Source of the DNA: Pseudomonadota bacterium
GTDB taxonomy: Bacteria; Pseudomonadota; Gammaproteobacteria; Burkholderiales; Burkholderiaceae_D
DNA length: 32,313 nt
NCBI GenBank assembly: GCA_030272785.1
Contig: JARXKM010000023.1
Span: forward strand, 1 to 32,313
Direction of reading: 5' to 3'
This document shows positions 8,107 through 22,400 of this stretch, piece after piece. A program made the position numbers and the translations under genes. The notes under the pieces were generated by a model. That model saw nothing but the letters and a program-made list of their open reading frames with translations. It had not been told where the DNA came from and made no database searches. The stretch's first letter is position 1. The number at the start of each line of letters is the position of its first letter.

Positions 8107-8208
8107 AAAAAACCGGGACAGACCCGGTTTCCGCCGTAGAAAAAACCGGGACAGACCCGGTTTTCGCCGTAGCGGCTGCCTTGTAAAAACCGGGTCTGTC
8201 CCGGTTTT
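8107..8208. repeat. Three copies of the AACCGGG-acaga-CCCGGTT palindromic repeat
   Basis: Copies lie at about 8110-8130, 8142-8164 and 8186-8208. The first two are direct repeats sharing the trailing CGCCGTAG (unit ~33 bases); the third is inverted (loop tctgt instead of acaga). Each is a 7-base-pair GC-rich stem flanked by A and T runs, so each resembles an intrinsic terminator readable from either strand. They sit between the convergent cytochrome and DUF1841 genes. The same element recurs four times at 22101-22348. Confidence 0.9.
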
Positions 8209-8236
8209 CTGCGGTTTCTGCGCCGAGCAGGACAGG

Positions 8237-8656
8237 CTAGCGCTTGCGCACGCACTCGACGTAGGCGTCGGCGTCCGGCGGCACGCCGTCGCGCTGCGAA
8301 TTCCAGATCATCTCGCCGAGGCATTCCATGATCCGGTGGTGCGCCTCGTGCTGGCCGACGCGGCCGGTGAGCGCATTGATGGCGTCGCGGATGCCGCGCG
8401 GCTGGTCGACCGAGACCTGCTCGGAAATCGACAGGTGCATCGACAGGTGCAGGAAGGGATTGGTCCTGCCGCCTTCGACGGCATAGTCGCGCGCCAGCGC
8501 GGCGTCGACGTCGGCCAGCTCGGCGTCGTACTCGGGATGGCCGGCGATCCAGTCGCCCGCGATCGCTTCCATCGGGCTGAGGATGTCGCCGGCGCGCTGC
8601 TTGCGGAACACGTCGCAAAAGAAACGGCGGACGTCGTCGGAGGACGGTGTGAACAT
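8237..8656 (-). CDS. DUF1841 family protein
   Basis: About 139 residues when started at MFTPSSDDVRRFF (8656). The family start is normally MFxPSxxxVRxFF, so the ORF track's extra 11 residues (start at 8689) are probably not translated, although neither start has a clear ribosome-binding site. The conserved core NPFLHLSMHLSISEQ and the QHEAHHRIMECLGEMIW segment identify DUF1841, a cytoplasmic family of betaproteobacteria and relatives with no established function. Several conserved histidines suggest metal binding, which is only inference. The gene ends beside the palindromic repeat cluster. Confidence 0.87.
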   Translation of the reverse strand: MFTPSSDDVRRFFCDVFRKQRAGDILSPMEAIAGDWIAGHPEYDAELADVDAALARDYAVEGGRTNPFLHLSMHLSISEQVSVDQPRGIRDAINALTGRVGQHEAHHRIMECLGEMIWNSQRDGVPPDADAYVECVRKR

Positions 8657-8786
8657 GGTCGGCAAAGGTGTCGGGGCTGAAGCCGCCATTGTAGCCGCTA
8701 CGCGCGCGCCAGGCCGAACCGGGCGCGCACAGGCCGCCGCGCGCCGCGCGCGGCGCGGCAGCGGTCAGTCAATCAGGCGGCGCAGC

Positions 8787-9782
8787 TCACAGCGGCGCCG
8801 CACGGACCGCTGGCTTGCGCTTCGGGAATACCTCGCCGCCCAGGTAGGAAATGTAGAAGCGGCGCTGGCTCATGGCGATCAGCACGCGGTGCGCGCGCAG
8901 GAAATCGGCGCCGATCAGCACCTCGGGCGTGCGGTAGCTAACGCCTTGCGGCGGATTGTCGCGCATGCCGATGTGCGCGTGTTTGATCGTTTCGCTGCCG
9001 ATCGCGAAGCTGTCTACCTCGACCTGCCAGGTGTCGATGCGGGCGTCGCCGATGCCCGTCGAGCTGCCGCGTCGTTCGACGTTGGCGTCGCCTACCTTGA
9101 TGCCGGCCCGTTCGGCGGCGGCGCGGGTCATCGAGGTGAAGTTGGCGCCGGTGTCGATGATTGCCTCCATCTTGGTGCCGTTGATCTCGATGATCAGGCG
9201 CGGGTCGAGATGGCCCGTTTCGGTGCCGCCGAAGCCGATCTCCATCGCATCGGCGCTCCAGTAGGCCAGGTAGGTGTCGGCACAGTCCTTAGCGCGGTAA
9301 AACTTGAGCTTGTGCTCGGCAAGCGAAATCTCGAGGTCGGCCTGCAGCAGGAAATTGGCGCCCAGGATGCCGTCGAAGCCGGGCGGCTTGCCCATATTGC
9401 CCAGCACCGCCATCGTGGTCTTGCCGCTGTGCGCGTCGCCGACCGCGATGTCGTCGATCCTGGCGACGTAATTGACCGAGGTGCCGCTGATGCCCTGCGA
9501 ATAGGCGCCGTTCTGATGCAGCGGCACGTTGTACTTGTCGGCCCACGCCTTGACCAGCTTGCTCGACGCGGCGCCGGTGTCGGCCAGCAGGACCGCCGGA
9601 TTGCCGTTGATCGTGCCGTCGACGGTGGGCTGCCAGACGTCGCCGCTGCCGCGCAGTTGCAGGGTCGCCACCGGCACGTAGTGACAGGCCGGTGCCTCGG
9701 CGGCATGGCCGAAGGCGCATGGCAGCGCCAGCAGCAGAAGGGACAGGGGGCGCAGCGCGCCTTTGTGCATGGTCATGGTCAT
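8787..9782 (-). CDS. Secreted double retropepsin-like aspartic protease
   Basis: 331 residues from the first of three closely spaced ATGs (MTMTMHKG; 9782, 9776, 9770). A signal peptide (ALRPLSLLLLALPCAFGHAA) targets it to the periplasm or beyond. Two clan AA aspartic-protease lobes are visible: the first with LLADTGAAS (D68) and a FDGILGANFL flap/partner strand, the second with AIIDTGANF (D210) and VLIGADFLRAHRV. Each lobe has its own DTG and hydrophobic-hydrophobic-Gly motif, so the pair could fold together like a pepsin in one chain. It ends YISYLGGEVF plus a short basic tail. It is a close paralogue of the gene 80 bases upstream. Substrate unknown; family call fairly sure, activity inferred. 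Confidence 0.85.
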   Translation of the reverse strand: MTMTMHKGALRPLSLLLLALPCAFGHAAEAPACHYVPVATLQLRGSGDVWQPTVDGTINGNPAVLLADTGAASSKLVKAWADKYNVPLHQNGAYSQGISGTSVNYVARIDDIAVGDAHSGKTTMAVLGNMGKPPGFDGILGANFLLQADLEISLAEHKLKFYRAKDCADTYLAYWSADAMEIGFGGTETGHLDPRLIIEINGTKMEAIIDTGANFTSMTRAAAERAGIKVGDANVERRGSSTGIGDARIDTWQVEVDSFAIGSETIKHAHIGMRDNPPQGVSYRTPEVLIGADFLRAHRVLIAMSQRRFYISYLGGEVFPKRKPAVRAAPL

Positions 9783-9862
9783 AGTCGTCGCAGTACGGTG
9801 GGAGGAAACGGCATGCCGGGGCTGTCTGGCCCGGGGGCGATGTTGGGTGAGGCCGGCGCCGT

Positions 9863-11406
9863 TCATGGCGCCGGTGCGCGCGGGCAGTCGCGCCGGCGCG
9901 CCGCCGTCAGCGCCTTCGCGGCGCTCCGGTCGCCCTGCGCACCAGCCAGTTCGGCGACGAACAGCTGGGCCTCGCAGTCTTGCGCGGCAGCCTGTGCCGG
10001 CGCGCCGGCGGCCAGCGCCCGCAGGCGCGCGGCGTCGATGCGGCCGAGGTAGAAGTCGGCCACCGGCACCGGCCAGCGGCGCTCGCGGTCGCCCTCGAAG
10101 CGCAGCGCCAGCTGGCGCGCCGCGCCGGCGCCGTCGCCTGCCTGCAGCTGGGCCAGGTACAGGTACAAGGGCAGGCGCGGATCGTCGCGGTGCTGCGCGG
10201 CGGCGCGGCTGAACACGCCGGCCGACTCGCGCGCCTGGCCGTCATGCAGCAAGGTCGCGCCGACCTGGATGCTGGCGCCGGCATGGCCGTGCTGCGTCGC
10301 CTTCTGCAGCCAGGCGGCGGCCGGCGCGGCGGCGGCCGGCACGCCGCTGCCGCTGCGGTAGACATTCGCCAGCGCATATTCTGCCTCCGGATTGCCGGCG
10401 TCGGCCTCGCGCTGCAGCCACGGCGCGATGCCGGTGGCGCCGCGCGTAAACACGTCGCCGCCGAGGTAGGAAATGTAGAGGCGATTCTGGCTCATCGCAA
10501 ACAGCACCCGGTGGGCGCGCAGGAAATCGGTGCCCAGCAGGACGTCGGCGTGCAGGCGCCCGGTTTCCGGCGTGGCCGCGATGCGCAGCTCGGCGTCGCG
10601 GATCGTCTCGCTGCCGATCGTCAGCGTCTTGAACACCGCGCGCCATTGTGCCAGCCGTTCGGCGCCGATGCCGACCGCGTCGCGTGTCTTGATGGTGCCG
10701 GGGCTATCGATGTCGATGCCGGCCTTGCGCGCGGCGCCGACGAACACGAAGCTGCCGGAGGCGCCGCTGTCGATGATGGCGTCGAGCTTGACGCCGTTCA
10801 GTTCGACCGTGAAGGTCTGGTTGCGGCTGTCGCCGAAGCTGCCCGTCAGCGGCACCTCGTAGGCATCCTGGGACCAGTAGGCGAGAAAGCTGTCCTTGCA
10901 GTTGTGCGGCCGGAAGAAGCGCAGCTGCTTGTCCGCCAGCGCGATTTCGACGTCGGCCTGGAACAGGAAGTCGGCGCCGACGATGGCGTCGAACGGCGGC
11001 GTCATGCCGGTCTCGCCGATCACCCGCACGGTACGCTTGCCGCTGTGGATCGCGCGACCGCGAAGTCGTGGATGCGGACGTCGTACACGCGGCTGGCGCC
11101 GCCGATGCCGTTGACGCGCGCGCCGGTCATGTGCAGCGCCAGGTCGAGCCGCTCGGCGGCGCCGCGCGTCAGATAGGTGGCGTGCGAGCCGGTGTCGATC
11201 AGCATCGGCGCCGGCAGGCCGTTGATGGCGCCGTCGACCGCCGGATGGAACGCCGCGCCGAGGTAGCGCAGCGGCAGTTCCGCCAGATTGACGTACTGGC
11301 ATTTGAGCGGCGCCTCGTCGGCGCGGGCGGCGCCCGCAACGAGGACCAGGGCGATGGCGAAGAGAACGGCCAGCGGCAGGGCGCGGCGGAGACGGAAAAT
11401 GGACAT
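9863..11406 (-). pseudogene. Frameshifted paralogue: double retropepsin-like protease with C-terminal Sel1-like repeats
   Basis: Two reading frames together make one protein. The N-terminal part (ATG at 11406, MSIFRLRRALPLAV signal peptide, lobe 1 with MLIDTGSHATYL) runs in one frame to about 11056 and then hits a stop at 11020. The rest (IHSGKRTVRVIGETG, FDAIVGADFLF, lobe 2 with AIIDSGASGSF, then YISYLGGDVF and Sel1-like helical repeats such as AEYALANVYRSGSG) continues in the -1 frame to 9863. Aligning with the downstream paralogue (AVGDAHSGK) shows that one C (plus strand) is missing after about 11055; restoring it gives AVGAIHSGK. Either a real inactivating deletion, a sequencing error, or less likely a recoded site. 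Apart from this, the protein is complete, about 513 residues. Confidence 0.8.
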
Positions 11407-11448
11407 GCGCGATTCTAGCGCAGCAAATTGCGCAAGAATGAACATTGA

Positions 11449-11484
11449 TAAAAAAAAGATGGCCGGCGCATGCGGCCGGCCATC
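11449..11484 (-). terminator. Intrinsic terminator after rppH
   Basis: On the minus strand GATGGCCGG and CCGGCCATC form a 9-base-pair stem followed by eight T. It lies just after the rppH stop codon. Confidence 0.88.
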
Positions 11485-11492
11485 GGGTGCGG

Positions 11493-12101
11493 CTATTCCT
11501 TCACCGGCGCCAGCGCCAGCTGCGGCTCGGCCACGCAGTCCGGTTCGGCGGCGCTCGCGCGCGGTGCGTGCGGCTGGCGCAGGTAGCGGGCGGTGTGGCG
11601 CCGCTCGTGGGTGTGCGCGCCGCCGGCCGGCCAGGTCAGGAAGCGCGACAGCTCCTGCAAGGCGCGCTGGTAGACGTCGCGCTTGAACTCGATCACCACG
11701 TCGAGCGGCACCCAGTATTCGTGCCAGCGCCAGGCGTCGAATTCGGGATGGTCGGTCAGGCGCAGGTTGACGTCGTTGTCGCGCGCGACCATCCGCAGCA
11801 GGAACCAGATCTGCTTCTGGCCACGGTAATGCCCGCGAATTTCACGCTTGATGAAATGATCGGGCACCTCATAGCGCAGCCAGTCGCGGGTGCGACCGAC
11901 GATCTTGACGTGCTCCTGGCGCAAGCCGATTTCTTCCTCCAGCTCGCGGTACATCGCCTGCTCCGGCGTCTCGCCGTACTTGATTCCCCCTTGCGGGAAC
12001 TGCCACGAGTGCTCGCGCACCCGCTTGCCCCACCACACCTCGTTCTGGGCGTTTAGCAGGATGATGCCGACGTTGGGCCGAAACCCTTCACGGTCGAGCA
12101 T
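11493..12101 (-). CDS. rppH: RNA pyrophosphohydrolase RppH (NudH)
   Basis: 202 residues. The Nudix box is intact at residues 38-60 (GGIKYGETP, then RELEEEIGL), matching GX5EX7REUXEEXGU, and the protein opens [17 protein letters not shown] as is standard for RppH. It removes pyrophosphate from 5'-triphosphate or NpN-capped mRNA ends in the cytoplasm and so starts RNase E-dependent decay. The C-terminal ~40 residues after the WPAGG segment are a low-complexity tail typical of betaproteobacterial forms. It is divergent from proS with ~200 bases between them, an arrangement common in Burkholderiales. Confidence 0.96.
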
Positions 12102-21298: not shown

Positions 21299-22096
<798 letters not shown>

Positions 22097-22100
22097 TCCC

Positions 22101-22125
22101 AAAAACCGGGACAGACCCGGTTTTT
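22101..22125 (+). terminator. Palindromic repeat acting as probable terminator of the ABC operon
   Basis: AAAAACCGGG-acaga-CCCGGTTTTT begins five bases after the ATPase stop codon: a 10-base-pair stem with a T run. It is one copy of the repeat family also present at 8107-8208. Confidence 0.6.
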
Positions 22126-22400
22126 GGCATTGCCACGGGCTGATAATTGCCTCAATACCGGGTCTGTCCCGGTTTAGCGCGCAACGCCCTTTGGCGCGAA
22201 CTGGGCCAGCGATGATGGAAGAGCAGCAGCGCCACCGCAGCGACGACTGCGCATGGCCGCGGTCGACTGATCCCGAAACCGGGACAGACCCGGTTTTCGG
22301 CATTGCCACGAGACGATGTTTGCCTCAATACCGGGTCTGTCCCGGTTTGGCGCGGTCCGGCGATCACTCCCGGCGGCGACTATGGTGTAAACTCGCGTCC

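Follow-up and report, generated by a model that had tools for sequence, protein, structure and literature searches.

Aspartic proteases of the pepsin type are bilobal monomers with one catalytic aspartate per lobe, and retropepsins are homodimers (PMC12239564). Breaks of the reading frame within otherwise coding genes are in many cases errors (PMC1852416, PMC11017572), and in M. smegmatis, 28 of the 73 interrupted genes tested proved to be so (PMC1852416). In the GeneTack survey, frameshifted genes were clustered by conserved position and direction of the shift, and motifs in the nearby sequence served to call recoding (PMC3711429).

The window analyzed here is the whole stretch of 32,313 nucleotides of contig JARXKM010000023.1, from a draft assembly (GCA_030272785.1) of a Massilia-like Pseudomonadota bacterium. 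Its minus strand carries two overlapping frames that make up one protein, with the N half at 11406-11056 and the C half at about 11047-9863. The parts of the gene are as follows, with G004 denoting the finished, one-contig genome among the four congeners of the draft (G001 to G004).

11056-11406, minus strand: N-terminal half, comprising the signal peptide (MSIFRLRRALPLAVLFAIALVLVAGAARA) and the beginning of lobe 1 with the catalytic DTG at 11196-11188 (frame and translation; PF13650, 1.3e-10; orthologue start)
11047-11056, minus strand: site at which the frame changes by one base (break in the tblastn alignment with the intact G004 orthologue; codon-signal changepoint at 11054)
11020-11023, minus strand: TGA at 11022-11020 that ends the N frame prematurely and overlaps a C-frame GTG as GTGA (sequence)
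10444-11047, minus strand: protease part of the C-terminal half, comprising the remainder of lobe 1 with its hhG motif, and lobe 2 with the catalytic DSG at 10771-10763 (frame; PF13975, 6.5e-10; paralogue alignment)
9863-10443, minus strand: Sel1/TPR-like C-terminal tail and stop codon (weak, below-cutoff profile matches; family profile against solved structures)

The N frame runs from the ATG at 11406 to its TGA, and the C frame stays open for hundreds of codons upstream of the junction, and its listed start (11302) falls within the N half, where this frame is not the coding one. Codon-usage scores were trained on the undisputed genes of the window and amount to 0.58 per codon for the N half and 0.48 for the C half, compared with 0.34 to 0.80 for known genes of the window, and they fall to -1.25 for the N frame beyond the junction and to -1.27 for the C frame ahead of it. 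A reference-free maximum-segment scan places the changepoint at 11054. In tblastn against the intact G004 orthologue, the alignment ends at 11056 and restarts at 11047, leaving 8 nucleotides where 9 are expected. The frame break is thus confirmed and is no chance effect; codon signal, scan, and tblastn agree with the first-pass annotation, which had described a one-base frameshift dividing a protein between two frames and had given its start (11406) and end (9863) correctly.

The break is absent from every relative seen, both in the family genomes and among the loci found in a search of GTDB contigs. Matches with an E value of at most 1e-30 are present in 33 of 246 family genomes, the draft included, and all of those outside the draft lie in a stop-free open frame. 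Both halves share one frame in the family relatives that were fetched, as found by blastp of the halves against stop-to-stop frames. The GTDB contig search yielded 64 loci, mostly from Massilia and other Oxalobacteraceae and some from Alphaproteobacteria, and 59 of these hold both halves in one frame (87 frames); a few frames carry a single half, and from the table of matches, most of these look like diverged relatives or cuts at contig ends. G004 carries an intact gene of about 509 amino acids, whose identity to the C piece is 64%, and the gene order around it is that of the window (proS, rppH, protease, DUF1841-like gene, and cytochromes c). Relatives have one intact gene; two separate genes in orthologues, which the first-pass annotation had named as a finding that would refute it, were looked for and not found. 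The frame is disrupted here and intact in the orthologues, as in a pseudogene.

The intact product would be an exported aspartic protease whose two retropepsin-type lobes are predicted to pair up in a pepsin-like fold, followed by a Sel1/TPR-like tail. The earlier label "double aspartic protease" is better replaced by one bilobal protease. The N and C pieces were searched against Pfam separately and gave 42.2 bits to PF13650 (cutoff, 24.3) and 39.9 bits to PF13975 (cutoff, 28.2), respectively; a short paralogue next to the gene scores 90.7 bits over two stretches. Each lobe has a D[TS]G motif and a hydrophobic-hydrophobic-Gly (hhG) motif, and D[TS]G is found in 38 of 41 aligned relatives at motif 1 and likewise in 38 of 41 at motif 2. 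The few relatives without it have NTG, NLG, or DTA at motif 1 and STG, GSG, or NTG at motif 2, and they may be inactive homologs or misaligned. In a profile search of solved structures, the lobes match Ddi1, 9IY9, retroviral proteases, and a Rickettsia retropepsin, and the tail matches Sel1-repeat proteins and NlpI; the tail's Sel1 match in Pfam is weak and lies below the cutoff, and TPR-type matches to NlpI and ExoR are below the cutoff as well. An AlphaFold2 model built from 41 sequences, for the intact paralogue only, shows two lobes (pLDDT, 85.8; pTM, 0.81), and its best solved match is 9IY9 (E value, 1.1e-13), followed by renin and plasmepsins with TM scores of about 0.5.

Within lobe 1, the break falls after the DTG and ahead of the hhG motif. 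The export signal and one aspartate remain on the N piece, which has no complete lobe, and the second aspartate is on the C piece, which has no export signal. Each lobe would give one catalytic aspartate, and because the break lies inside lobe 1, neither piece should form an active site, and both are expected to be inactive.

The gene lies in an interval bounded by two conserved genes, the left one a Nudix gene named rppH-like from its sequence, and the right one a gene that resembles DUF1841. The features around the gene are as follows.

11493-12101, minus strand: rppH-like Nudix gene, conserved and bordering the variable interval on the left
11458-11484, minus strand: intrinsic terminator after rppH, separating it from the protease genes
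8787-9866, minus strand: intact short paralogue with two lobes and no tail (frame, translation, and alignment)
8237-8689, minus strand: conserved gene of 150 amino acids, the right border of the variable interval

The strong terminator after rppH points to a separate transcription unit for the proteases. The ATG at 9866, which begins the longest ORF of the short paralogue, overlaps the stop of the frameshifted gene upstream. It is probably not the real start, which would be the internal MTMTMHKG, near which the signal peptide begins, as it does in the orthologue of the short paralogue; residues 1 to 25 of the paralogue model have a pLDDT below 50. The paralogue aligns with the long gene over the two protease lobes only, and nothing in it corresponds to the last approximately 190 residues of the long gene (about 10443-9866), which corrects the first-pass statement that the two match along their full length.

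Between rppH and the DUF1841-like gene (8690-11492 in the window), tandem-retropepsin genes have been gained and lost within one genus, making this interval a hot spot of such change. No protease lies between the two border genes in G002 and G003, where they are 182 and 130 bp apart, respectively; G001 has the short paralogue only, and its sequence is found in the record of Massilia eurypsychrophila JCM 30074; G004 has the long gene only, and the window has long and short genes in tandem. Tandem protease copies are also present elsewhere in the family. Since the content of the interval varies within the genus from empty to short, long, or both, the gene is dispensable, and a real loss from such a variable gene cassette, which the first-pass annotation had not noted, is plausible.

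Repeats were observed elsewhere in the window. An imperfect tandem duplication of about 175 nucleotides, about 91% identical, at 22006-22354 on the plus strand takes in the 3' end of an ABC-transporter ATPase gene (21299-22096) and a 22-nucleotide inverted-repeat element. This element, AAAACCGGGTCTGTCCCGGTTTT, is a REP-like or terminator-like interspersed repeat with seven copies in the window, which lie in two clusters (8107-8216 and 22103-22348) and in both orientations; none are expected from shuffled sequences.

We favor, with a probability of roughly 0.53, the reading that the gene is truly inactivated by a recent mutation. According to this reading, a single-base frameshift inside lobe 1 would have disrupted one gene, which otherwise encodes an exported bilobal protease ending in a Sel1/TPR-like tail, and the cell would have tolerated the loss, given a dispensable locus and the intact paralogue in tandem beside it. 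The leaning toward a true recent event is due to the break being in a dispensable gene of a draft that is not riddled with indels. The draft and G004 were compared over 103 orthologue pairs (106 kb), and the one frameshift detected is in this gene; the reverse test detected none. Over the parts surveyed (draft, 566 kb; G004, 1.22 Mb), frame transitions occur at 7.1 per Mb in the draft versus 7.4 in the finished genome, and of the four in the draft, only the present one has no ATG nearby; there is thus no general excess of frameshifts in the surveyed part of the draft. The counts over orthologue pairs come from codon-usage-filtered genes, on which the survey was redone; the first survey, over all ORFs, had given 11 apparent breaks in both directions, and those inspected looked like antisense frames or gene boundaries.

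That the organism's gene is intact and one base was lost from the draft by a sequencing or assembly error is a serious alternative, to which we give somewhat less than an even chance. The assembly is a draft of 5.40 Mb in 520 contigs with 82.8% completeness, and published error rates for breaks of this kind are high (PMC1852416, PMC11017572), which adds to the case. The event is of a single base, no second lesion was found in the gene, and both halves evolve as intact genes do: the ratio of N to C identity is 0.94, versus 0.88 ± 0.13 between intact pairs, so that neither half shows extra decay, and no signs of relaxed selection were found (NG86 rates against G004 are distorted by a GC3 of 0.92 and served only for comparing the two halves). 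The conservation of both halves, which the first-pass annotation had also noted, is upheld, and no second lesion attests to real decay. Against an error stand the absence of any homopolymer (three bases or longer) from the break site and the frame statistics given above; if errors fall at random, it would be mere luck that the lone break hit a dispensable gene. The GC-rich GCGCG context, which had been taken to favor an error, is a weak argument, given the site without a homopolymer and the assembly without an excess of frame breaks.

In the population, the short CG-repeat (GTCGCGCGAT) where the gene is broken might slip both ways, so that some cells make the exported protease and others do not (phase variation), with the intact tandem paralogue as a backup, but we consider this very improbable. 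Still less credit can be given to a programmed -1 ribosomal frameshift yielding the full-length protease. Both halves are conserved and the required shift is -1, but no relative seen shares the frame transition, the paralogue and the closest orthologue are each encoded in a single frame, and a direct reading of the sequence from 11080 to 11020 contains no slippery heptamer of the form X XXY YYZ. The conservation and the motif near the site used in the GeneTack survey are both lacking here, and -1 recoding was rejected on these grounds. Of the three options left by the first-pass annotation, a recent event and an assembly error stand, and recoding falls away. Two separate functional genes, the second translated by reinitiation at the GTG of GTGA (11023-11020), are equally hard to credit: the 4-base overlap is typical of coupled genes, but this GTG is merely an ordinary conserved Val codon of the intact protein, also GTG at the equivalent place in G004, no relative carries two genes, and the product of such reinitiation, possible in principle, would have neither the signal peptide nor the first catalytic aspartate and only half of lobe 1.

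If the inactivation by a recent mutation is real, the locus is one more case of the Oxalobacteraceae tandem protease family losing members independently. If the break is an error, the locus is to be annotated as interrupted and not as two proteins. In both cases, it should not be listed as a recoding candidate.

Literature searches on the 9IY9 structure and on tandem retropepsins returned no paper on the present protease family. The protein resembles tandem retropepsin-type proteases (PF13650 Asp_protease_2 and PF13975 gag-asp_proteas) in having the aspartyl-protease profile, D[TS]G, and hhG in both lobes. The nearest solved example is 9IY9, a putative endopeptidase of Bacteroides fragilis and the best structural match of the paralogue model, although identity is 16% and the TM score about 0.5, and the long gene here adds a Sel1/TPR-like tail and is frameshifted in this copy. 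Pepsin family A1, including renin and plasmepsin II, is composed of bilobal monomers with one aspartate per lobe, as is proposed here, and the predicted fold of the paralogue matches it; in contrast, identity is 12 to 15%, and the protein here is bacterial, has a TPR-like tail, and is nearer in sequence to retropepsin and Ddi1 profiles. The secreted retropepsin-like RloA peptidases of Pseudomonas are also exported, bacterial, and present in several copies, which are redundant in their case, but RloA is a dimer of one-lobe chains (PMC12239564); membership in the RloA/RimB retropepsins was rejected, since the Pfam matches here are to other families and two lobes lie in one chain. As for the break itself, the locus agrees with described interrupted coding sequences (PMC1852416, PMC11017572), in which a one-base break in an otherwise intact gene is due to mutation or error, and nothing notable sets it apart from them. 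It is an ordinary case of a broken gene from a known protease family, or a sequencing error, and not a special decoding signal.
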